NCBI RefSeq assembly: GCF_006970865.1
Contig: NZ_CP035503.1
Coordinates: 2,431,001-2,495,000 of the forward strand
Direction of reading: 5' to 3'
Source: Rhodoferax sediminis
GTDB lineage: Bacteria > Pseudomonadota > Gammaproteobacteria > Burkholderiales > Burkholderiaceae_C
DNA length: 64,000 nucleotides
The position numbers and the translations under genes are program-made. Shown here one piece after another: positions 28,874 through 43,082 of the stretch. The notes under the pieces were generated by a model that saw only the letters and a program-made list of their open reading frames with translations, was not told where the DNA came from and did no database searches. The first letter of the stretch is position 1. Every line of letters begins with the position of its first letter.

Positions 28874-30406
28874 TCACAACGGAATGTTCCCGTGCTTGCG
28901 CCACGGGTTCTCGATCTTCTTCTCGCGCAGCATCACCAGGCTGCGGCAGATGCGCTTGCGCGTCTCGTGCGGCAGGATCACATCGTCGATGAAACCGCGC
29001 GCACCGGCCACGAACGGGTTGGCGAAACGCTCCTTGTATTCCGCCTCGCGTGCAGCGAGTTTTACAGGATCGTTCTTGTCCTCGCGGAAGATGATTTCCA
29101 CCGCGCCCTTGGCGCCCATCACCGCGATTTCGGCGTTCGGCCAGGCGAAGTTGACATCGCCGCGCAGGTGCTTGGAGCTCATCACATCGTAGGCGCCGCC
29201 GTAGGCCTTGCGCGTGATCACCGTGATCTTCGGGACCGTGCATTCGGCGTAGGCGAATAGCAGCTTGGCGCCATGTTTGATGATGCCGCCATACTCCTGC
29301 GCGGTGCCCGGCATGAAGCCCGGCACATCGACAAACGTGACCACGGGGATATTGAAGGCGTCACAAAAGCGCACGAAGCGCGCGGCCTTGATCGAGCTCT
29401 TGATGTCCAGGCAGCCCGCCAGCACCAGCGGCTGATTCGCCACGATGCCGATGGTCTGCCCTTCCATGCGGCCGAAGCCGATGAGGATGTTCTTCGCATA
29501 CTCGGGCTGCAGCTCGAAAAAGTCGCCATCGTCCACGGTCTTGGTGATCAGCTCCTTCATGTCGTAGGGCTGGTTGGGGTTGTCGGGCACCAGCGTGTCG
29601 AGCGAAGCCTCCATGCGATCCGCCGGATCACCGCTCAGGCGCACCGGGGCTTTTTCGCGGTTGCTGAGTGGCAGGTAGTTGTACAGGCGCCGCAACATCA
29701 GCAGCGCCTCCACGTCGTTCTCGAACGCCAGGTCGGCCACGCCGCTCTTGGTGGTGTGCGAGATCGCACCGCCCAGCTCTTCGGCGGTGACCTCCTCGTG
29801 CGTCACGGTCTTGACCACCTCGGGGCCCGTGACGAACATGTACGAGCTGTCCTTGACCATGAAGATGAAATCGGTCATGGCCGGCGAATACACGGCGCCG
29901 CCCGCGCACGGCCCCATGATCATGCTGATTTGCGGCACCACGCCACTGGCCATCACGTTGCGCTGGAACACGTCGGCGTAGCCGCCCAGCGAGGCCACGC
30001 CTTCCTGGATGCGCGCACCGCCCGAATCGTTCAGGCCGATCACCGGCGCGCCGACCTTCATGGCCTGGTCCATCACCTTGCAGATCTTCTCGGCATGCGC
30101 CTCGGACAGCGCACCGCCGAACACGGTGAAGTCCTGGCTGAACACGAACACCAGGCGGCCGTTGATCATGCCGTAGCCGGTGACCACGCCGTCCCCCGGA
30201 ATCTTGTTGTCGGCCATGCCGAAGTCGCTGCAGCGGTGCTCCACGAACATGTCCCATTCCTCGAACGTGCCCTCATCGAGCAGCAGTTCCAGCCGCTCGC
30301 GGGCCGTGAGCTTGCCCTTCTTGTGCTGGGAATCAATGCGCTTTTGTCCACCGCCCAGGCGCGCGAGTTCGCGCTTGGCTTCGAGTTGTTCGAGGATGTT
30401 TTGCAT
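28874..30406 (-). CDS. pccB: propionyl-CoA (acyl-CoA) carboxylase carboxyltransferase subunit
   Basis: A 510-residue carboxyltransferase with two crotonase-like halves. The oxyanion-hole region is [13 protein letters not shown] near 120 and [18 protein letters not shown] near 370, and [14 protein letters not shown] is also typical. It transfers the carboxyl group from biotin on PccA to propionyl-CoA. The start [12 protein letters not shown] at 30406 fits the family. It lies between meaB (upstream) and pccA (downstream). Confidence 0.92.
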
Positions 30407-30443
30407 GGTCAGTTTTCGTCGTTGCTTCAATATTGATAGTGGA

Positions 30444-31462
30444 TCATGCCCGTCTGTCCTGGGCTGCGAGCAGATTTCGTGCTGCAGTGGAGGCCGCCAG
30501 CCGGCCTTCGGCGACTTCGCGGGTCAGCTGCGGCAGCAGCTCGCGCACCTGCGGATGCTGGCGGAACGCCTGCTTCAGGCCCGCATCGATGCGCTCCCAC
30601 ATCCACGCCAGCGCCTGATGTTGCCGGCGCGCCGCCAGCCGTCCGTTGGCGCCCTGCAGCGCCTGGTACTGCGTGACCGCCGCCCAGAATTCGGCCACAC
30701 CCTTGCCGTGCAGCGCGCTGAGCTGGATCACCTGGGGATGCCACTGCTTGTCGGGGCCCTGCGCCTGGGCGTGTCCCATCGCATGGTTCACCAGGCCAAA
30801 CAGCCGCATCGCCGACATGATTTGCGCCTGGGCGCGGCGCGCGGCATCGGCATCGAGGTCGGCCTTGTTGATGACCACCAGGTCGGCCAATTCCATCACG
30901 CCCTTCTTGATGGCCTGCAAATCGTCGCCCGCGTTGGGCAGCTGCATCAGCACGAACATGTCGGTCATGCCGGCCACCGCCGTCTCGGATTGCCCCACAC
31001 CGACGGTCTCGACGATGACCACGTCGTAGCCCGCGGCCTCGCACACCAGCATGGCCTCGCGCGTTTTCTCGGCCACACCGCCCAGCGTGCCGCTGGACGG
31101 ACTTGGACGGATATACGCGCGTTCGTGCACCGAGAGCTTTTCCATGCGCGTCTTGTCGCCCAGGATGGAGCCGCCCGACACCGTGGACGACGGGTCGATG
31201 GTGAGCACGGCAACACGGTGGCCTTGTTCGATCAGGTACAGGCCGAGCACTTCGATAAAGGTGGATTTGCCCACGCCCGGCACGCCGCTGATGCCCAGCC
31301 GAAACGCCTTGCCGGTGTGCGGCAGCAGCGCCGTGAGCAGTTCGTCGGCCTGCGCGCGGTGGTCGGCGCGGGTGGATTCCAGCAGCGTGATGGCCTTGGC
31401 GATGGCGCGGCGCTGTACGCTGGCCCCGCCGTGCAGCACTGCGTCCACCAGTGCGCTCTGGC

Positions 31463-31466
<4 letters not shown>
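30444..31466 (-). CDS. meaB: methylmalonyl-CoA mutase-associated GTPase MeaB
   Basis: A 340-residue G3E GTPase. The P-loop is [12 protein letters not shown] near residue 62, the metal and switch motifs are [18 protein letters not shown] and [10 protein letters not shown], and NKADLD is the base-specificity motif. It protects the mutase and gates cobalamin loading. The start is GTG, overlapping the end of the mutase gene by 4 bases (GTGA), so the two are coupled. Confidence 0.95.
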
Positions 31467-33619
<2,153 letters not shown>

Positions 33620-33727
33620 GGCACGGCTCGCTCGGTGGTCGTTCTATTGTCGGTTCTGTATCGCGCCAAGTTTACATCATTTATAATTATTCATTCAGAA
33701 TACCCATTTGAGCCTACAATTCACCGT
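33620..33727. promoter_or_regulatory. AT-rich divergent promoter region, mutase/GntR
   Basis: 108 bases between divergent genes with an AT-rich core, TTTACATCATTTATAATTA (33671-33689), containing TATAAT at 33682-33687 on the plus strand. This is the natural place for GntR control of both sides. I could not define a clean operator dyad. Confidence 0.4.
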
Positions 33728-34375
33728 ATGGTCGCTGCCTCCCTGTCCCCCCGCGCACTCTATGAAGAAGTGGCCGAACTGCTGCGCCAGCGCATTTTCA
33801 GCCGCGAGCTGGAGCCCGGCAGCTGGATTGACGAGCTCAAGCTGGCCGAGCAATACGGCATCAGCCGCACGCCCCTGCGCGAGGCGCTCAAGGTGCTCGC
33901 CGCCGAAGGCCTGGTGACCATGAAGGTGCGCCGCGGCGCCTACGTGACTGAAGTGTCCGAGCGCGACCTGGCCGATGTGTACCACCTGCTCGGCCTGCTG
34001 GAAGCCGACGCGGCCGGCGTGGTGGCGGCACAGGCCACCGACGCGCAGCTGCGCGAACTGCAGGCCCTGCACCAGGAGCTGGAGGCTGCCGCCGTGCCCG
34101 GCAACGAGGACCGCCAGCAGTTCTTTGCCGTGAACGAGCGCTTTCACATGCAACTGCTGGCCGTGGCCAACAACCGCTGGCGCGACCAGATGGTGGCCGA
34201 CCTGCGCAAGGTCATGAAGCTGAACCGCCACAACTCGCTGCTGAAGTCGGGCCGGATCGAGGAGTCCCTGCGCGAGCACCGCGCCATCATGGCCGCGCTG
34301 GCCGCACGCGACAGCACGGCGGCCGTGCAGCGCATGCACGAGCACTTCAAGAACGGGCTGGAAGCGGCGGCTTGA
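33728..34375 (+). CDS. GntR/FadR-family transcriptional regulator
   Basis: A 215-residue regulator. It has an N-terminal winged helix (YEEVAELLRQRIFSRELEPGSWIDE, then YGISRTPLREALKVLAAEGLV) and a C-terminal all-helical FCD effector domain with a metal-site-like pattern (NERFHMQLL, HRAIMAAL, MHEHFKNG). It is divergent from the methylmalonyl-CoA mutase operon, so propionate or methylmalonate metabolism is the likely target (inference). The ATG at 33728 is chosen; the long in-frame extension upstream overlaps the mutase gene and is not real. Confidence 0.88.
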   Translation: MVAASLSPRALYEEVAELLRQRIFSRELEPGSWIDELKLAEQYGISRTPLREALKVLAAEGLVTMKVRRGAYVTEVSERDLADVYHLLGLLEADAAGVVAAQATDAQLRELQALHQELEAAAVPGNEDRQQFFAVNERFHMQLLAVANNRWRDQMVADLRKVMKLNRHNSLLKSGRIEESLREHRAIMAALAARDSTAAVQRMHEHFKNGLEAAA

Positions 34376-34405
34376 TCGGACTCGCGCCCCTGCGCCCGAT
34401 GCGCT

Positions 34406-35008
34406 TCAGCCCTCGGACGGCGGGAAAGTCGGCCGCGCGGGCAGCTCAAAGCGTCCCCAGACGAGCTTGCCGGCGACACCGAGAAACAGCACCGAGCCAA
34501 TCACCAGCATGTACCTGCCGAGCCGCTGCTGATCGCCCAGCAGATAGAGGTTGCACAGGCGCTCGGGCGAGATCAGGTAAAGCCAGCCCAGGCGGAAGAA
34601 CGTGGCGATGAATTCAAGCAAAAAAACACCGCGCACGATGAAACTCATGCGCGGCCAGCTGAGCGCGAACGGAAGCCCGACGAGCAACGGCAGCGAGAGA
34701 TATTTGGCCGCGGCGACCAGTGGCTCGATCACCGAGGCGTCGAGCGTACGCGGCAGCATCCAGAATGCGCTGGCGACGCTGGCGAGCACCAGCCCGCTGA
34801 TGCCGAGGTGATTCCAGCGCGCGATTCGCGCCAGCCCCGGCGCCGGCAGCGCCTGCGCCAACAGACTACCGACGCCGATCAACAATGGCAGTTGCAGCAG
34901 CATCTGTGCAGTCATGCTCGACTCGAGCGCGTGCCTGAGCGGCGGCGCCAGCAGCACCAGCAACGCCAGCGCGGCGAAGCGGCCGGGGTGACGCAGGTGC
35001 ATGTTCAT
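34406..35008 (-). CDS. small multi-pass membrane protein of the sNOR-like operon (OrfX position)
   Basis: A 200-residue hydrophobic protein with about six predicted membrane segments, beginning MNMHLRHPGRFAALALLVLLAPP. No catalytic motif is recognised. It overlaps the SCO gene by 4 bases and is the fourth gene of the heme-copper operon, the position of the membrane protein OrfX in norSY-senC-orfX clusters. A role in assembly or as an accessory subunit is inferred from position only. Confidence 0.65.
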   Translation of the reverse strand: MNMHLRHPGRFAALALLVLLAPPLRHALESSMTAQMLLQLPLLIGVGSLLAQALPAPGLARIARWNHLGISGLVLASVASAFWMLPRTLDASVIEPLVAAAKYLSLPLLVGLPFALSWPRMSFIVRGVFLLEFIATFFRLGWLYLISPERLCNLYLLGDQQRLGRYMLVIGSVLFLGVAGKLVWGRFELPARPTFPPSEG

Positions 35009-35628
35009 CGGCCGAGGCGCTGCAACACGACCTGTGCGACGGGCCCCGGGTCACCGAGATCGAAGATCCCGACCAGCCGGCCACGCGGGTCGACGAGATG
35101 GATTGCCGCGTTGTGGGTGTAGCCGCCGAGGCCGTCGGCGATGACGGTGACGCCGAACGCACGCTTGATCTGCGCCAGGCCGTCAGGGTCGATCGGCCTG
35201 GCGGCGAGCCAGCCACGGCCGCGGTCGCGGTCGCGTGAGTGCGCCAGGTAGGCCGCAAGTTGCGAGGGGATATCGTGATCCGGGTCAAAACTGATGCTCA
35301 GCAACTGCACCTTGCCCTGAGCGATTGGCCCGGCAAGACGATCCTGCAATTGCGCGAATTCGCCGCCGAGCGCGATGCAATAGCTCGGGCAGCGCGTGTA
35401 GATGAAATCGATCACAAGCCACTTGCCGCGAAAATCGCTCAACTGGATGTGCGCGCCCGACTGGGTTTGCAGGCCCGCCGCAGGAATCTCGACCGGATGC
35501 CGCTGCACCGCAAGCCGCCGCGCGGCTTCGGTGGTAAAGGCCTGGAACTGGTCGGTGGCTGCACTGAACACGGCACCACCGGCCAGCAGGAACGCCAGGC
35601 TAGCCAGTAACGCGCGCAGGGTCGGCAT
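35005..35628 (-). CDS. senC: SenC/SCO-family copper chaperone
   Basis: A 207-residue thioredoxin-fold protein with an N-terminal membrane anchor or signal (LRALLASLAFLLAGGAVF). The copper ligands are C80 and C84 in the RCPSYC motif and H172 in THNAAIHLVD. SCO proteins load copper into the CuA site of oxidase-type subunit II, which fits the CuA subunit encoded two genes upstream. The ATG at 35628 lies inside the end of the catalytic subunit gene (29-base overlap); the TTG extension is less likely. Confidence 0.85.
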   Translation of the reverse strand: MPTLRALLASLAFLLAGGAVFSAATDQFQAFTTEAARRLAVQRHPVEIPAAGLQTQSGAHIQLSDFRGKWLVIDFIYTRCPSYCIALGGEFAQLQDRLAGPIAQGKVQLLSISFDPDHDIPSQLAAYLAHSRDRDRGRGWLAARPIDPDGLAQIKRAFGVTVIADGLGGYTHNAAIHLVDPRGRLVGIFDLGDPGPVAQVVLQRLGR

Positions 35629-37078
35629 GGCCAGGCGACCTGAGCAGCCCGACAAGGATTTGAACAGCGAACACCAGCATCGCTGTAATCAGCAAGGCTG
35701 CACCGATGGCCCCGGCCTGGTCGTACGGCAGCCACTGCGGCAGATGGACCGCGAAACGCCGCGGCGTACTTTCATGGCCGGCCGCGAGGAATGCGAAGAC
35801 AAACACCAGGCCCCCAAAAACATAGAGTGGAAAGCCAAGCTTGTCGCTTGCGCGAGCGGGCGTACGCTGGCCAATCACGTGAAACATCAACGCAAGCACC
35901 ATCGGCAGCACACCGAGCAGCAGATAGAAATGAAAGTGACCCGGCACCCACTGGGTGTTGTGCATCACCCTGTTGACGGAAATGGTGCCATCGATGATGG
36001 CAGGGATGATGCCCGCCGCCCACCCGAACATGGACAACATCAGCAGACTGGACGGCATGCGCCAGCGCATGCCGGAACGGTAAACATTGGTCAACGCACC
36101 ATAGACCGTCACGGTAAACACCGGCAGGCCGGCGCAGTAGGAAATGATCTGGCCCATCACCAGCATCCAGAATGGCATGGCGTAATCCATCATCAGGTGG
36201 TGTGGATAGACGATCAGCACCATCACCAGGCTCGACGCCCATGACCACAGGAACGGTCGCGAGATCGGGTACGGCCTGCCGCTGTAGCGCGGCAACATCT
36301 CATAGACGGCGATCACGCCCATATAGATGCTGGCGTTGATGAACATGTGACCGAACAGATAGGTCAGGTTCTTCACCAGCAGTGCGTTGAGTCCGACCGA
36401 CGGAAAATAGATGTTGATCAGGCACATCACCAGCACGACCGCGCCAGCCAGCACACCGATCGAATTGGTGATGGCCACCATGGTGCTCGCAACCACGGCC
36501 TTCGGATGCGACTTGTCGATCTCGCCGCCAAACAGCCACTGCAGTCCCAGCGCGCGGCCGAGGTTGCCGTAAACCCGGATGATGGCCCACATCGCATCCA
36601 GGTAGAACAACAGAAAGCCGACGCCGATGAGCAGGTAGCCGAGCATGAACAGCGCGGCAGCATGCGGACTCCACACATTCATTGAATGCACCGGCAGCGG
36701 ATAAAGAAAGGTCCACGCTCCGGCGTAGCCACCAATGAATACCGCCGCCAGGAGAGCGACCGCGCCGAGTATGAAGAGCACGTAGTTGGCAGCGAAGATC
36801 GCGAGTGTCAACTTGACATACTTGCGCAGAAAAAACCACATCACCACGCTGGACGCCAACCCGATCGTGCCCACCATGCCGGCACCGTGCGCCGTCATTA
36901 CCCGATAGAAAACGTCGAGCGGAACGCCGAGCCAGGTGCTCTGGGCCAGGCGCATCGTCAAGCCCAGCAGCATCATCAGCACAAAGACGAGCAGCACCGA
37001 AGCCACATACAAATTGAAGACGATGCGCTCGTTGCGCGTCAGGGCCTCGTCGGCCGGGTACAGCTGCATTGTGCTCAT
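35600..37078 (-). CDS. norY: B-family heme-copper catalytic subunit lacking the active-site tyrosine (sNOR NorY-like)
   Basis: A 492-residue protein with about 12 or more membrane helices. Visible ligands are H64 (low-spin heme, TAHGAGM), H244, H293 and H294 (copper/iron B: FGHMFIN, YPHHLMM), and H381 and H383 (hemes, WVPGHFHF). Ungapped comparison with Thermus ba3 (GHPIVY) puts N248 where the cross-linked Tyr should be. Loss of that Tyr is typical of NO reductases rather than O2 reductases. The gene order matches sNOR clusters. Annotation pipelines would probably call it cytochrome c oxidase subunit I; O2 reduction is not excluded. It overlaps the subunit II gene by 4 bases. Confidence 0.8.
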   Translation of the reverse strand: MSTMQLYPADEALTRNERIVFNLYVASVLLVFVLMMLLGLTMRLAQSTWLGVPLDVFYRVMTAHGAGMVGTIGLASSVVMWFFLRKYVKLTLAIFAANYVLFILGAVALLAAVFIGGYAGAWTFLYPLPVHSMNVWSPHAAALFMLGYLLIGVGFLLFYLDAMWAIIRVYGNLGRALGLQWLFGGEIDKSHPKAVVASTMVAITNSIGVLAGAVVLVMCLINIYFPSVGLNALLVKNLTYLFGHMFINASIYMGVIAVYEMLPRYSGRPYPISRPFLWSWASSLVMVLIVYPHHLMMDYAMPFWMLVMGQIISYCAGLPVFTVTVYGALTNVYRSGMRWRMPSSLLMLSMFGWAAGIIPAIIDGTISVNRVMHNTQWVPGHFHFYLLLGVLPMVLALMFHVIGQRTPARASDKLGFPLYVFGGLVFVFAFLAAGHESTPRRFAVHLPQWLPYDQAGAIGAALLITAMLVFAVQILVGLLRSPGHADPARVTG

Positions 37079-37620
37079 GGTTGCGCTCCTTTATCGGCCG
37101 CTACGACTTCGAACTCGGTGACCATTCCGTGGTGCGCCAAACCGCAATATTCCAGACACATGACCCGGTACTTGCCGGGCTCGGTGAAGGTATGGAGCAG
37201 CCGATTGCTGAAGCCGGGCATCGCCTGGGTCTGCGTGACGATCCGGTCGCCCGGGCCGTAGATCGCGAAGCCATGGTTGACATCGGCGCTGGTGACGTTG
37301 AATTCCACCGGCGTGCCCGCCCGCACCTGGCTCTGGCTCAATTCCCAGTTCCACTGGCGCCCGATCACGTTGACGATCTGTGCGGCTGGCGCCTGCACGC
37401 GCTGGTTGGCGATCGGAAAGGGGCTCAGGGTCGCATACGCCACGCCGACACCGAGCAGAACCAACGCGAGGAGCCACCATCGTCGGATCGCATGGGCCCT
37501 CTTTTGCACCTGAGCCGAATCGGCCGACTTGCCCGCCTGGGCGATCACGTAAATGAACGCCAGCGCGACCACTGAGATCCCCGTCAACGTCAACAACCAG
37601 ACTTCGTCCTGTATGACCAT
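37075..37620 (-). CDS. norS: CuA-type cupredoxin subunit II (sNOR NorS-like)
   Basis: A 181-residue subunit II. Two hydrophobic stretches (about 6-28 and 48-66) precede a periplasmic cupredoxin domain. A complete CuA site is visible: H116 (DVNHGF), C155, E157, C159, H163 and M166 in CLEYCGLAHHGM. It would accept electrons from cytochrome c for the catalytic subunit. The ATG at 37618-37620 has a GAAGGAA Shine-Dalgarno; the 84-residue longer open frame runs through the promoter and is rejected. It overlaps norY by 4 bases. Confidence 0.82.
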   Translation of the reverse strand: MVIQDEVWLLTLTGISVVALAFIYVIAQAGKSADSAQVQKRAHAIRRWWLLALVLLGVGVAYATLSPFPIANQRVQAPAAQIVNVIGRQWNWELSQSQVRAGTPVEFNVTSADVNHGFAIYGPGDRIVTQTQAMPGFSNRLLHTFTEPGKYRVMCLEYCGLAHHGMVTEFEVVAADKGAQP

Positions 37621-37635
37621 GGCAGTTCCTTCGTA

Positions 37636-37646
37636 AAGGTGCATTT
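37636..37646 (-). promoter_or_regulatory. NsrR-like half-site upstream of the sNOR-like operon
   Basis: AAGGTGCATTT on the plus strand (AAATGCACCTT leftwards) matches the 11-bp NsrR half-site AAGNTGYATTT as I remember it. It is 16 bases before the norS start, downstream of the promoter, where a repressor would block transcription. The second half (TTTGATGGCTG) is poor. Confidence 0.45.
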
Positions 37647-37657
37647 TTGATGGCTGA

Positions 37658-37686
37658 AATGTCGCGGCAAAAAACAGAACTGTCAA
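37658..37686 (-). promoter_or_regulatory. sigma70-type promoter of the sNOR-like operon
   Basis: Read leftwards, a perfect -35 TTGACA (37681-37686) is followed by 17 bases and a weak -10 GACATT (37658-37663). The weak -10 suggests that an activator or another factor may be needed. The start codon is about 38 bases further on. Confidence 0.5.
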
Positions 37687-37840
37687 GTTGAATTTTTCTG
37701 GCTGGCCGAAGAAGCCGATGCTTAGGCGTGGGCCGCCATTGCCCTTGCCGAAAAGAGCGGGAAGTTTGAATTCCATCGGCCCAGCAACTAAATTGAACGA
37801 GTAGTGTCTGATGGCGCGCAATGCGGCCGAAAGGAATGCC

Positions 37841-38245
37841 ATGAAGCCGTTTTCAATGGAATCGAGCATGCTGACGATGCGCGGGGTGTTTTACCCCACC
37901 GGCTATCTGTTCGTGATGCTGCCCAAACTCGAGGATGCTGAAACGCTCGACCGCAATCTGCGTGCGAGCGGCTACAGCGACCGCGAACTCATGCTGCTCA
38001 CGCCCGAGGTCATCCTCGGGCAGATCCGCAAGACCGTACGCGACGACACCAACCCGCTGCCTTCGGTAGGGTCCGAGAGCGACACGGTGCGCGAATACGA
38101 AAAATTCGCGCGGCAGGGGCACTGCGCGGTGATGATCCATGTGCCGTCCGAAAAGGACACCCCGCGGATCATGGAAACGGTGCGCAGCGTGCCGTTTTCC
38201 TATGCGCAGAAATACCGCCCGCTGATCATCGAAGACATGGCCTGA
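37841..38245 (+). CDS. hypothetical protein with a YflT/GSP17M-like fold
   Basis: A 134-residue soluble protein. The core FYPTGYLFVMLPKLEDAETL, followed by a predicted helix and ASGYSDRELMLLTPE, resembles the beta-alpha-beta pattern of YflT-type stress proteins, where residues from a lookup-like strand pair with the GY-x(n)-E/D segment. This is a structural impression, not an assigned family. The ATG at 37841 has an AAAGGA Shine-Dalgarno. It is divergent from the sNOR-like operon (220-base gap) and convergent with spoVR. The function is unknown. Confidence 0.7.
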   Translation: MKPFSMESSMLTMRGVFYPTGYLFVMLPKLEDAETLDRNLRASGYSDRELMLLTPEVILGQIRKTVRDDTNPLPSVGSESDTVREYEKFARQGHCAVMIHVPSEKDTPRIMETVRSVPFSYAQKYRPLIIEDMA

Positions 38246-38292
38246 GCCGGCACGGGCGCCGGAAAGGTGCCGCAGCGGGCACCGCACAGCCG

Positions 38293-39873
38293 TCAGGACA
38301 CGGGCGGCAGGGTTGGCGTGACCTCCCACTGCTGCATCACCTTGCCGTGCTTGTCCACGCTCTCCAGCCGCACGCGAAACCCCCACAGCCGACCCACGTG
38401 CTTGAGGACTTCCTGCGCCTCCTCGTTGAGCGGGCGGTCATTGTGGCGCGTGTGGCGCAGGGTCAGGGAGCGGTCACCGCGCAAATCGACGTTCCAGACC
38501 TGGATGTTGGGCTCGCGGTAGCTCAGGTCGTTCTGACGCGCCAGCGCTTCGCGCACATGACGGTAGCCGCGCTCGTCGTGGATGGCGGCGACTTCGAGCT
38601 CGTTTTGCGATGCGTCATCGACGATGGAGAACAGCCGCATCTCGCGCATCAGATGGGGCGACAGGTACTGGCCGATGAAGCTCTCGTCCCTGAAATGACG
38701 CATCGCGTAGTCGAGCGTCTGCAGCCAGGGCGACCCCGCGATGTCGGGAAACCAGGTCCGGTCCTCCTCGGTCGGGTTCTCGCAGATGCGGCGCAGGTCG
38801 CTGAACATCGCAAAACCCAGCGCATAGGGATTGATGCCGCTGTAGCCCGGGTGTGTGACCGGAGGCTGGTAGATCACATTGGTGTGGGAACGCAGCACCT
38901 CGATCATGAAGCCGTCGGTCAACTGGCCCTCATCGTACATGGCATTGAGCAGCGTGTAGTGCCAGAACGTGGCCCAGCCTTCGTTCATGATCTGGGTCTG
39001 GCGCTGCGGGTAGAAATACTGCGCAATCTTGCGCACGATGCGAATCACCTCGCGCTGCCAGGGCTCAAGCAACGGGGCGTTTTTCTCGATGAAGTACAGG
39101 ATATTTTCCTGCGGCTCGGCCGGAAAGCGCCGGCTCTTTTTCTCGACCTGCTTTTCGGCTGCCTTCGGCAGGGTGCGCCACAGGTCGTTCACCTGCTGCT
39201 GCAGGTAGGCTTCGCGGTCCTTGCGCAGTGCTTCCTCTTCGGCCAGCGAGCGCTTTTGCGAGCGCCGGTAGCGGTCCACCCCGTGGCTCATCAGGGCGTG
39301 GCAGGAATCCAGCAGTTCCTCCACCGCGTCCAGCCCGTAGCGCTCCTCGCACTCGGCGATGTAGGCCCGCCCGTACACCAGGTAGTCGATGATCGAGGTG
39401 GCGTCGGTCCACATGCGAAACAGGTCGTTGCCCTTGAAAAAGGAGTTGTGGCCATAGCAGGCATGCGCCATCACCAGCGCCTGCATCGGCATCGTGTTTT
39501 CCTCCATCAGGTAGGCAATGCAGGGGTTGGAGTTGATGACAATCTCATAGGCCAGCCCCATCTGTCCGCGGCGATAGCTTTTTTCCGTCGCGATGAACTG
39601 CTTGCCATACGACCAGTGCCGATAGTTCACCGGCATGCCGACCGAAGCGTAGGCGTCGATCATCTGCTCGGCGCTGATGACCTCCAGCTGCAACGGGTAG
39701 GTGTCCAGCCCGAAGCGCTGGGCCATGCGCGCAATCTCGGCGTGGTACGTCTCGATCAGCTCGAACGACCAGTCGGACGGGCACGGCAGCGGCGTGCGGC
39801 GACCAACGGTTCGCGGCCCTGTGGGCGGCCCGGCCGGCTCGTCTGAGGGTACCTGGAAGGTGGGCACGGTCAT
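38293..39873 (-). CDS. spoVR: SpoVR/YcgB family protein
   Basis: A 526-residue SpoVR-family protein. Characteristic segments are SYGKQF, NSNPCIAYLMEENTM, AHACYGHNSFFKGN (residues about 150-160), NEGWATFWHY and HTNVIYQPP. The molecular function is unknown. It is the third gene of the prkA-yeaH-spoVR stress cluster found across bacteria. Its ATG overlaps the yeaH stop by 4 bases. Confidence 0.92.
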   Translation of the reverse strand: MTVPTFQVPSDEPAGPPTGPRTVGRRTPLPCPSDWSFELIETYHAEIARMAQRFGLDTYPLQLEVISAEQMIDAYASVGMPVNYRHWSYGKQFIATEKSYRRGQMGLAYEIVINSNPCIAYLMEENTMPMQALVMAHACYGHNSFFKGNDLFRMWTDATSIIDYLVYGRAYIAECEERYGLDAVEELLDSCHALMSHGVDRYRRSQKRSLAEEEALRKDREAYLQQQVNDLWRTLPKAAEKQVEKKSRRFPAEPQENILYFIEKNAPLLEPWQREVIRIVRKIAQYFYPQRQTQIMNEGWATFWHYTLLNAMYDEGQLTDGFMIEVLRSHTNVIYQPPVTHPGYSGINPYALGFAMFSDLRRICENPTEEDRTWFPDIAGSPWLQTLDYAMRHFRDESFIGQYLSPHLMREMRLFSIVDDASQNELEVAAIHDERGYRHVREALARQNDLSYREPNIQVWNVDLRGDRSLTLRHTRHNDRPLNEEAQEVLKHVGRLWGFRVRLESVDKHGKVMQQWEVTPTLPPVS

Positions 39874-41141
39874 GGCGTGGTCGTTTTCTTGAACAGCTCG
39901 CGGAACACCGGGTAGATCTCGGACGGCCCGGAGATTTTCTGCATGGCGAAGTTGGGGTGCGCCGCCTGCACCAGGCTGTATTCCTGCCACAGGTTCTGGT
40001 CCTCATCGGCCACCTGGACATAGGCGAAATAGCGGGTCAGCGGCAGCAGCCTGTCGGACAGCAGTTCCCGGCATTTGGCCGAGTCCTGGTGCCAGTTGTC
40101 GCCGTCCGAGGCCTGCGCGCCGTAGATATTCCACTGGTTCGACGGGTAGCGCGCCTGGATGATCTCGTGCATCAGCGTCAGGGCGCTGGACACCACCGTG
40201 CCCCCGCTCTCGGTAGACTGGAAGAACTCCTCCTCGGAGACTTCCGAGGCCTGCGTGTGATGGCGGATGAAAATCACATCGGTGCGCTCGTAATGCCGCG
40301 TCAAAAACAGGTACAGCAGGATGAAGAAGCGCTTGGCAATGTCCTTGCGCGCCTCGTCCATCGAACCGGACACGTCCATCAGGCAGAACATCGCCGCCTT
40401 GGCCGTGGGCAGTGGCACCCGGACCCGGTTGCGGTAGCGCAGGTCGAACGGGTCGAGAAACGGAATCTGGCCGAGCCGGCGCCGCAGCGCTTCGATTTGT
40501 GCTTTCAGGGCAAGGATTTCGGTATGCGGCGTTTGGGCGTGGCGCAAGGCCGTCGCCAGCCGTGCCTCCAGCTCACGCAGGCGCCGGCGCACATCGCCCC
40601 CCATGGCAATCCGGCGGCCCAGCGCCATGCGCATCGAGCGCACCACATGCAGATTGGTCGGCGTTCCCTCCGAGATGAAACCGGCGCGCCGCGACTGCCA
40701 CTCCGGCGCATCGGGCAGCAACTGCGTGCGCACCAGATGCGGCAGCGCGAGGTCGTCGAAAAAGTACTGCATGAACTCTTCGCGCGTGATGCGGAACACG
40801 AAATCGTCCTCGCCCATGCCGTCCGGACTCGCCCCGCTGCCGGCCCCACCCGCGCCACCGCCGGCCGGCCGCTCGATGCGGTCGCCGCGCACATATTCCT
40901 GGTTACCGGGGTGCACGCTCTCGCGCGTGCCGCCCGGGCCATGCCCGAACACCGGCTCGGACACGTCATGCCTTGGCAGCGTGATGTCTTCGCCCTGCTC
41001 CATGTCCCGGATGCTGCGCCCGCTCACGGCGCGGCGCACAGCCTCGCGGATCTGCCCGCGGTAGCGGTGCAGAAAGCGCTCGCGATTGCCGATCGACTTG
41101 TTCTTACCCGACAGGCGCCGATCGATGATTTGGTGGAGCAT
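39870..41141 (-). CDS. yeaH: YeaH/YhbH family protein (DUF444, VWA-like)
   Basis: A 423-residue DUF444 protein. The C-terminal half has a von Willebrand A-like fold with the metal-site motif MDVSGSMDEARK near 250 and a later GGTVVSSAL. It works with the PrkA kinase in stress and stationary-phase responses. It starts 18 bases after prkA and overlaps spoVR. Confidence 0.93.
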   Translation of the reverse strand: MLHQIIDRRLSGKNKSIGNRERFLHRYRGQIREAVRRAVSGRSIRDMEQGEDITLPRHDVSEPVFGHGPGGTRESVHPGNQEYVRGDRIERPAGGGAGGAGSGASPDGMGEDDFVFRITREEFMQYFFDDLALPHLVRTQLLPDAPEWQSRRAGFISEGTPTNLHVVRSMRMALGRRIAMGGDVRRRLRELEARLATALRHAQTPHTEILALKAQIEALRRRLGQIPFLDPFDLRYRNRVRVPLPTAKAAMFCLMDVSGSMDEARKDIAKRFFILLYLFLTRHYERTDVIFIRHHTQASEVSEEEFFQSTESGGTVVSSALTLMHEIIQARYPSNQWNIYGAQASDGDNWHQDSAKCRELLSDRLLPLTRYFAYVQVADEDQNLWQEYSLVQAAHPNFAMQKISGPSEIYPVFRELFKKTTTP

Positions 41142-41159
41142 GGTGGCCTCAGGTCGGCA

Positions 41160-43082
41160 TCAAGAGCTCTTGCGCACCCGCAGGTACCAGTCGCACAGCA
41201 GGCGCACCTGCCGCGGGGTATAGCCCTTGGCCACCATGCGGTTGACGAAGTCCTCGTGCTTTTGCTGCTCGTCGGCGCTCGCCTTGGCGTTGAACGAAAT
41301 CACCGGCAACAGATCCTCGGTGTTCGAGAACATCTTCTTCTCGATCACACTGCGCAGCTTCTCGTAACTGGTCCAGACCGGATTCTTGCCGGCGTTGCTG
41401 GCGCGCGCGCGCAGCACGAAATTGACGATCTCGTTGCGGAAGTCCTTCGGGTTGCTGATGCCGGCCGGCTTTTCGATCTTCTCGAGCTCGGCGTTGAGCG
41501 CCGCCCGGTCGAACAGCTCACCAGTGTCGGTATCGCGGAACTCCTGATCCTGGATCCAGAAGTCCGCATACGTCACATAGCGGTCGAAGATGTTCTGGCC
41601 GTATTCGGAATAGGACTCCAGGTACGCCGTTTGTATTTCCTTGCCGATGAATTCGGCATAGCGCACCGCGAGCTGCTCCTTGATGAAGCCCAGGTATTTC
41701 TGCTCGGTTTCCGGCGGAAACTGCTCGCGCTCGATCTGCTGCTCCAGCACATACATCAGGTGCACGGGGTTGGCCGCGATTTCGGTGGAATCGAAATTGA
41801 ACACCTTGGACACGATCTTGAACGCAAAGCGGGTCGAGACGCCGCTCATGCCTTCGTCCACGCCGGCGTAGTCGCGGTATTCCTGGTAGCTCTTGGCTTT
41901 CGGGTCGGTGTCCTTCAGGTTCTCGCCGTCGTAGACCATCAGTTTGCTGAAGATGCTCGAATTTTCGGGCTCTTTCAGTCGGGTCAGCACGGCGAACTGC
42001 GCCATCATCTTCAAGGTGCCGGGCGCGCAGACCGCGTGCGACAGCGATGAGTTGCGGATCAGCTTTTCGTAGATCTTGACCTCATCGGAGACCCGCAGGC
42101 AGTACGGCACCTTGACGATGTAGATCCGGTCCAGAAAGGCTTCGTTGTTCTTGTTGTTCTTGAAGGCCTTCCACTCGCTCTCGTTGGAGTGCGCCATCAC
42201 GATGCCGTCGAACGGAATCGCGCCGAAGCCCTCCGTGCCCTTGAAGTTCCCCTCCTGCGTCGCGGTGAGCAGAGGATGCAGCACCTTGATCGGCGCCTTG
42301 AACATTTCGACGAACTCCAGCAGGCCCTGGTTCGCCAGGCACAGGCCGCCGGAATAGCTGTAGGCGTCCGGGTCGTCCTGTGCAAAGGTTTCCAGCTTGC
42401 GGATGTCGATCTTGCCGACCAGCGACGAGATATCCTGGTTGTTTTCATCGCCCGGTTCGGTCTTGGCGATGGCGCACTGCTTGAGAATCGACGGGAAACG
42501 CTTGACCACGCGGAACTTGCGAATGTCACCGCCGTATTCCTCCAGGCGCTTGACGGCCCAGGGCGACATGACGCGCTGCAGGTAGCGCGGCGCGATGCCG
42601 TACTGGGACTCCAGCACCGGCGCGTCTTCGGTATTGCTGAACAGGCCCAGCGGAGATTCGTTCACGGGGGAGCCCTTGAGGGCGTAGAACGGCACCTGCT
42701 CCATCAGTTGCTTGAGCCGCTCGGCGATCGACGACTTGCCGCCGCCGACCGGTCCCAGCAGATACAGGATCTGCTTCTTCTCTTCCAGCCCCTGGGCGCC
42801 ATGGCGGAAGTACGACACGACCTGCTCGATCGGGTCTTCCAGCCCGTAGAAGTCCCGAAAGGCCGGGTAAATCTTGACAACCTTGTTGCCAAAGATGCGC
42901 GACATCCGCTGGTCATGGCGCGTATCGAACATCTCGGGCTCGCCGATGGCCGCCAGGATGCGCTCGGCCGAGGTGGCGTAGACAAGGGGATCTTTCTTGC
43001 ACAGCTCCAAATAATCTTCGAGCGACAGCTCCTCCTCCCGAGACTGCTCGTAACGTGCCAGAAAGTTGCGGACGACATCCAT
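41160..43082 (-). CDS. prkA: PrkA/YeaG-type serine protein kinase (AAA+)
   Basis: A 640-residue PrkA protein. An AAA+ domain with Walker A GPVGGGKSS (residues 110-118) occupies the first half, with the family segment VMAHSNESEWKAFKNNKNNEAFLDRI. A C-terminal kinase-like domain follows. E. coli YeaG controls stationary-phase and nitrogen-starvation responses. First gene of the three-gene operon. The start has an AGGAGG Shine-Dalgarno. The 182-base upstream region holds the palindrome CACTGCAGTG near 43119-43128 but no clear sigma54 site. Confidence 0.95.
   Translation of the reverse strand: MDVVRNFLARYEQSREEELSLEDYLELCKKDPLVYATSAERILAAIGEPEMFDTRHDQRMSRIFGNKVVKIYPAFRDFYGLEDPIEQVVSYFRHGAQGLEEKKQILYLLGPVGGGKSSIAERLKQLMEQVPFYALKGSPVNESPLGLFSNTEDAPVLESQYGIAPRYLQRVMSPWAVKRLEEYGGDIRKFRVVKRFPSILKQCAIAKTEPGDENNQDISSLVGKIDIRKLETFAQDDPDAYSYSGGLCLANQGLLEFVEMFKAPIKVLHPLLTATQEGNFKGTEGFGAIPFDGIVMAHSNESEWKAFKNNKNNEAFLDRIYIVKVPYCLRVSDEVKIYEKLIRNSSLSHAVCAPGTLKMMAQFAVLTRLKEPENSSIFSKLMVYDGENLKDTDPKAKSYQEYRDYAGVDEGMSGVSTRFAFKIVSKVFNFDSTEIAANPVHLMYVLEQQIEREQFPPETEQKYLGFIKEQLAVRYAEFIGKEIQTAYLESYSEYGQNIFDRYVTYADFWIQDQEFRDTDTGELFDRAALNAELEKIEKPAGISNPKDFRNEIVNFVLRARASNAGKNPVWTSYEKLRSVIEKKMFSNTEDLLPVISFNAKASADEQQKHEDFVNRMVAKGYTPRQVRLLCDWYLRVRKSS

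Follow-up and report, generated by a model that had tools for sequence, protein, structure and literature searches.

The sNOR Operon of Rhodoferax sediminis

The window analysed here is a 64,000-nucleotide stretch of the Rhodoferax sediminis genome, positions 2431001–2495000 of a single 4.39-Mb contig. In four overlapping minus-strand genes spanning 37620–34406, it carries a genuine sNOR, a heme-copper enzyme that is a candidate nitric oxide (NO) reductase and whose substrate is still disputed. The genes are laid out as follows. The first, norS (37620–37075), encodes a CuA-bearing subunit II of 181 amino acid residues, and the second, norY (37078–35600), a heme-copper catalytic subunit of 492 residues. 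Next come the gene for an SCO1/SenC copper chaperone, running from an ATG at 35628 (an alternative TTG start is at 35655) to 35005, and orfX (35008–34406), which encodes a small membrane protein of 200 residues. The norS/norY and SCO/orfX overlaps are each 4 bp (ATGA), and the norY/SCO overlap is 29 or 56 bp, depending on the start codon taken. Family matches are to COX2 for norS (PF00116, 27.7 bits), COX1 for norY (PF00115, 151.6 bits), and SCO1-SenC for the SCO gene (PF02630, 59.7 bits, with a CPSYC motif); the family search of the window proteins gave no match for orfX. The four genes, with their order, coordinates, and overlaps, are those proposed in the initial annotation of this DNA.

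Relatives were taken as the best 80 of the 370 that one scan of public genomes yielded. Among the 80 are six Nitrosomonas loci, Nitrococcus mobilis, Rhodanobacter, Castellaniella, Thermomonas, and others. All 80 have the four genes in one order, on a single strand, and within 4.6 kb, so the arrangement is not due to chance. That is, the norS-norY-senC-orf gene order that marks an sNOR is found in the window and at every related locus.

Metal Ligands and the Active Site

The CuA motif of NorS, CLEYCGLAHHGM, extends from residue 155 on. Its pattern, C.E.C...H..M, is present in the window NorS and in 79 of the 80 relatives; in L022, Ala replaces Glu. The second subunit is therefore a cupredoxin (CuA) protein rather than a heme c protein, as is characteristic of an sNOR.

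NorY was aligned with the aa3, cbb3, and qNOR enzymes of its own genome and with plasmid-borne ba3 enzymes. In this alignment, N248 occupies the position of the catalytic Tyr, which is Tyr in the A- and B-type rows and Glu in the qNOR rows. Asn is found here in all 80 relatives (78 by the strict pattern, L072 and L076 by reading). N248 and residues H64, H244, H293, H294, H381, and H383 are invariant in 39 sequences. We take H64 and H383 to be ligands of the low-spin heme, H381 of the high-spin heme, and H244, H293, and H294 of CuB. In a table in PMC8756737, sNOR and CuANor both have Asn as their active-site residue, and PMC11388526 lists CuANor/bNOR among the biochemically characterised enzymes.

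NorY lacks the features of a cNOR or qNOR, namely an active-site Glu together with either a heme c subunit or a cytochrome c-like domain fused to the enzyme, having no PF22085 match and Asn instead of Glu at the aligned position; the two qNORs of the same genome differ from it in both respects. It also lacks those of a ba3-type O2 reductase, namely the active-site Tyr and a place among the ba3 enzymes. The NorY model has a pLDDT of 86.8 and a pTM of 0.90, and its fold match does not discriminate NO from O2 as the substrate. Sequence searches matched 17 solved chains in one case and 46 in another, none of which is named as an sNOR.

Two alternatives to an NO reductase are affected by N248. The main one is a terminal oxidase of high affinity: NorSY would serve micro-oxic growth, with NO reduction as a side reaction or a tolerance trait. 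The replacement of the Tyr of the aligned A- and B-type oxidases by Asn throughout the 80 relatives argues against an oxidase, and we judge it rather unlikely. The same argument applies to a dual enzyme that would consume both NO and O2 and would sustain the respiratory chain when NO inhibits the other oxidases. Such an enzyme has in its favour that several heme-copper oxidases are known to reduce NO as a side reaction (PMC6967387); even so, it seems to us improbable.

Phylogeny of the Catalytic Subunit

The catalytic-subunit tree has 36 rows, with no bNOR, eNOR, gNOR, or nNOR row among them. Twenty-seven sNOR rows lie on one side of a branch with support of 77/90, present in 83% of bootstrap trees; the sNOR group that includes Thermomicrobium has support of 88/90, and support overall is moderate. 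The window NorY groups with the sNORs of Nitrosomonas, Nitrococcus, and Ruegeria, its neighbours being Polaromonas sp. C04, Paralcaligenes, a Rudaea metagenome-assembled genome (MAG), and Nitrococcus. The ba3 and A-type enzymes are outside, and the two ba3 rows form a starred group of their own, apart from sNOR. The phylogeny that the initial annotation had suggested as a check thus places NorY elsewhere than among the ba3 oxidases. Among relatives with a name, Polaromonas sp. C04 is the closest (NorY 99% identical), in keeping with the Comamonadaceae-like host that had been proposed.

The active-site residues, the gene order, and the tree position together support the identity of the operon as an sNOR. 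It is a new member of the family, in a host that is not unexpected given published reports. The initial annotation had implied that an sNOR outside the ammonia oxidisers would be novel, which is not borne out: sNORs have been reported from Silicibacter, Deinococcus, and Geobacillus (table in PMC8756737), Methylomirabilis (PMC6094997), Bacillota (PMC11388526), and Nitrococcus (by citation in PMC6967387). Its expectation that such enzymes go under oxidase names does hold where we looked. The Ruegeria and Thermomicrobium catalytic subunits, both plasmid-borne, are annotated as "cbb3-type cytochrome c oxidase subunit I". For the window NorY, the top NCBIfam model is CtaD_CoxA, far below its cut-off, the match being otherwise to generic COX1.

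SCO and OrfX

The C...C motif of the SCO protein is kept, and orfX is present, at all 80 related loci. W83, P86, D90, C152, Y155, and Q160 of OrfX are invariant columns among 24 members. The OrfX model has a pLDDT of 91.1, and its predicted fold has no match among solved structures at E ≤ 0.001. OrfX is 36% identical (E 1e-18) to a protein of its own genome that adjoins another SCO gene and another heme-copper enzyme. From the company that its gene keeps, OrfX is probably an assembly factor.

The homologue lies in a second heme-copper cluster at C1:559.8–565.4 kb (L133 9802–15372), with genes for NnrS, a CcoN-like enzyme, an SCO protein, and the OrfX homologue, about 2 kb from an NsrR-like gene. 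The CcoN-like enzyme, of 548 residues, is well under the ccoN cut-off. It follows that heme-copper enzymes of different kinds seem to have an OrfX protein alongside. In a betaproteobacterial MAG, an extra sco-orfX pair (L089 3952–5177) lies upstream of the operon for sNOR and perhaps belongs to this second type of cluster.

A CtaG gene close to the sNOR of Thermomicrobium suggested that OrfX might be a CtaG-like copper-insertion factor, but profile comparison did not support this (probability 0.5%, E 0.11), and the idea was dropped. DUF1404 was reached weakly by 3 of the 24 OrfX members.

Nitrogen-Oxide Metabolism of the Host and Relatives

The Rhodoferax genome contains narG, at 4.10 Mb, and two qNORs. 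Its best nirK match has 62.9 bits against a curated cut-off of 296.3, so that none is over the cut-off, and searches of the genome for nirS and nosZ gave no match to either. Given narG and no recognised nirK or nirS, reduction of nitrate to nitrite is expected; NO would be supplied by side reactions or by neighbours. Polaromonas sp. C04 has a nirK over the cut-off and a nosZ match. The initial annotation had seen no denitrification genes in view, and indeed, searches of the window for COX1-type genes, nirK, nirS, narG, and nosZ matched only norY, other denitrification genes not being looked for.

Nitrite reductases were compared between 50 sNOR-bearing genomes, hand-picked from the 80 loci for quality and spread, and 200 genomes of the phylum unscreened for sNOR. 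Either nirK or nirS is present in 25 of the 50 and 63 of the 200 (Fisher p 0.02; unions counted by hand, relatedness ignored). For nirK over the cut-off, the counts are 16 and 28 (p 0.006), rising to 29 and 38 at a looser E ≤ 1e-40; for nirS (E ≤ 1e-40), they are 13 and 36 (p 0.23). Because kinship is uncontrolled, the 200 are unscreened, and the 50 are hand-picked, this co-occurrence is weak.

Regulation at sNOR Loci

Neighbouring genes were surveyed at 82 loci, namely the 80 relatives plus Ruegeria and Thermomicrobium, with NsrR-like regulators counted within about 3.6 kb of the norY start; since flank lengths vary, the counts are lower bounds. The commonest neighbours from outside the operon are Rrf2 regulators (12) and formate/nitrite transporters (11). 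One Rrf2 member is a SUF regulator, and NsrR-like regulators are found at 11 of the 82 loci. Transporters are likewise found at 11 loci, 2 of them checked against Pfam and the others assigned by BLAST clustering. An NsrR-like gene or a transporter is present at 19 loci.

Upstream of norS, a site matching at least 16 of 22 positions of the NsrR consensus occurs at 9 of the 79 loci, compared with 7 of the 4476 stretches used as controls. Such a box is present at 8 of the 10 loci with a regulator near and at 1 of the 69 without. The consensus was not fitted to the loci but was set down after several palindromes had been spotted by eye, and the Fisher tests on boxes disregard relatedness. FNR/DNR-type boxes occur at 7 of 79 loci versus 8 of 2233 controls. 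The clustering of NsrR-like genes, NsrR boxes, and formate/nitrite transporters at the operon in some loci is a further argument against a terminal oxidase. The FNR-type boxes of some upstream regions, and the presence of both box types upstream of the L089 operon, would suit a dual enzyme.

In the window itself, an NsrR-like half-site, TTCAGCCATCAAAAATGCACCTT (37636–37658, minus strand), starts 38 bp before norS and agrees with 14 of the 22 consensus positions. Its right half is good and its left half weak. By a position weight matrix not trained on it, it is the third best distinct site in the 64 kb, and it falls in approximately the 1–2% tail of controls, which is weak. The matrix was trained on nine of the loci and two sites of the Rhodoferax genome, so matches in the nine training loci are circular. 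Clearer NsrR-type sites of the same genome lie before qNOR1, together with an FNR/DNR box, and before an NsrR-like gene at 557573. The window operon may be repressed by an NsrR-like regulator. More generally, the regulators, transporters, and operators found in part of the relatives favour an NO-linked role.

The association of NsrR with sNOR is partly visible in print, since NsrR of Nitrosococcus oceani (Noc2967) is listed near SenC, NorY, and NorS (Noc2969–2971) in PMC3772326. In the available portions of PMC4940428, PMC3764937, and PMC6967387, we found no proposal of NsrR control over sNOR, and the available portion of the 2005 NsrR regulon paper (PMC1274295) contains neither "SenC" nor "cytochrome c oxidase".

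A promoter-like pair, identified by eye, lies at 37658–37686 on the minus strand, with TTGACA at 37686–37681, a 17-bp spacer, and GACATT at 37663–37658; the block is also kept at the Polaromonas sp. C04 locus (L017). An Rfam search of 30000–42000 gave no match. Elsewhere in the genome, a hemerythrin-domain protein (by Pfam) and a ferredoxin-like gene (by eye) are beside the NsrR-like gene, at C1:555.4–557.5 kb (L133 5436–7239; L124), and an NsrR-type palindrome lies upstream of the NsrR-like gene.

The Insertion Site and Spread within the Genus

Comparison of the window with L142 and alignment of the borders define an inserted cassette of 3,420 bp (34376–37795), made up of the operon and its upstream region. 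In the congener G402, the GntR gene and the gene after it are about 35 bp apart, where the window has the 3,420 bp instead; DNA identity to the window is 93.5% in the left flank and 92.9% in the right. The same site is likewise without the operon in the congener G401. That genome carries a different sNOR at 1.87 Mb, with a NorY of 66% identity versus 79–88% for three flanking genes. Counting the Rhodoferax sediminis genome in each case, an sNOR is found in 5 of 7 genomes of the genus and in 6 of 398 genomes of a phylum sample; the relatives are numerous but sparsely distributed. In a tree of 83 rows, built by a quick method with SH-aLRT support only, the five sNORs of the genus occupy three separate positions, each beside rows from other genera.

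New here are the 3.42-kb cassette with an empty site in a relative about 93% identical around it and the three tree places of the genus's sNORs. The simplest reading is that the operon was gained horizontally, its four genes arriving as one cassette together with a promoter of their own. The empty site taken alone may also reflect loss in G402, and the three tree places could also represent one gain and two losses. GC content (0.624 for the operon, 0.63 for its neighbours) and GC3 (0.79–0.85 versus 0.87) give no clear compositional sign of transfer. The patchy presence in the genus and phylum and the empty site in so near a relative would also fit a cassette that was acquired but is silent and serves no function today. 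Against this, the four frames are intact and all ligands are kept, and relative to Polaromonas sp. C04, NorY (99%) and NorS (96%) are more conserved than SCO and OrfX (91% identical), pointing to stronger constraint on the enzyme. We regard a silent cassette as very improbable.

Next to the cassette, a divergent open reading frame of 144 codons, of unknown family, lies at 37811–38245 on the plus strand. It is present in Polaromonas sp. C04 and G402 and was not found in the G401 stretch searched. Among the relatives, an accD-like neighbour (start read by eye) is common to ten sNOR loci (L024, L044, L047, L049, L054, L056, L061, L065, L077, and L017, in the last at 6.6 kb from the norY start), which suggests that the operon has a set position in the chromosome in some groups of Gammaproteobacteria. 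MAGs labelled FW106, FW021, or FW602, presumably nitrate-contaminated groundwater wells, account for six of the 80 loci (L033, L038, L059, L069, L073, and L076).

Proposed Function

We think it probable, from the genes and their surroundings, that the operon encodes an sNOR chiefly reducing NO to nitrous oxide (N2O) under low oxygen and nitrosative stress. NorS and NorY would form a CuA-containing heme-copper enzyme, receiving electrons from cytochrome c or a cupredoxin. SCO and OrfX would be two assembly proteins for copper sites, with copper in the CuB site of NorY. NO would be the main substrate. As the genome has neither a recognised nitrite reductase that forms NO nor a match to N2O reductase, N2O would be the end product.

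Several observations weigh against this proposal. The NO reductase activity of the sNOR family is debated (PMC6967387); this paper gives a 2.7- to 10.8-fold increase of the Nitrosomonas europaea sNOR under O2 limitation, and its authors suggest that it is a high-affinity oxidase. Beside the two qNORs of the genome, a third NO reductase looks redundant. Of the sNOR-bearing genomes tested, half (25 of 50) have neither nirK nor nirS over the thresholds used. Most upstream regions (60 of 79) are below both the NsrR and the FNR thresholds, and the window operator is only a half-site, whose score of 14 is reached by 83 of the 4476 control stretches. None of the 12 NsrR-like proteins scored (11 encoded close to sNOR operons, plus that of the Rhodoferax genome) reaches the NCBIfam NsrR cut-off, and those of L081 and L085 match RirA better. 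For its part, the high-affinity oxidase would join aa3-type and cbb3-type enzymes (classed by eye) already in the genome, which counts against it.

The regulatory pattern seen in some of the relatives and the near-identical pair of genomes with and without the operon make the substrate question testable, in a host that we take to be outside nitrification. If NO is reduced, surveys counting only cNOR and qNOR overlook a source of N2O; a recent survey already counts sNOR, in the part of PMC12569097 consulted, so this gap is closing. We can tentatively go further, to a proposal that we hold somewhat short of probable. The sNOR operon may be a mobile cassette for detoxification under NO control, present in many Pseudomonadota that do not nitrify. 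It would be a complete unit of 3.4 kb that brings the enzyme, the genes that assemble its copper sites, and, in some cases, a promoter regulated by NsrR or FNR/DNR. Such a cassette would have reached a single small genus of Comamonadaceae, probably on three occasions, and, under oxidase names, would provide a silent N2O-making step for nitrate reducers without nirK, nirS, and nosZ.

Comparison with Known Systems

The norSY-senC-orf1 cluster is described as an ammonia-oxidiser cluster in the parts consulted of PMC4940428 and PMC3764937. The sNORs of Nitrosomonas and Nitrosospira share with the window the same four genes in the same order, the same Asn, and the same tree group. NorY at the six Nitrosomonas loci (L080, L082, L084, L087, L088, and L095) is 52–54% identical to that of the window. 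These six have a formate/nitrite transporter nearby, whereas none was found at the Polaromonas sp. C04 locus, which is syntenic with the window.

The nitrite oxidiser Nitrococcus mobilis is closer, with a NorY 75% identical, the same gene order, and a nearby place in the tree. Indirect evidence of NO reductase activity in this organism is cited in PMC6967387, in the part consulted. It differs in lifestyle, and the NsrR-type box before its norS is below threshold. The megaplasmid sNOR of Ruegeria (Silicibacter) pomeroyi also has the four genes in order and the Asn but is 48% identical. As a further difference, an Rrf2/NsrR-like gene lies divergently before its operon, and genes for a formate/nitrite transporter and a cytochrome c come after it.

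The bNOR/CuANor of Bacillus, compared by description only, has one proton channel versus none in sNOR, according to the table in PMC8756737. Finally, the ba3-type (B family) O2 reductases share the two-subunit plan of a CuA protein and a heme-copper protein, with distant sequence kinship. In contrast to NorY, both ba3 rows retain the Tyr, and they group outside sNOR.

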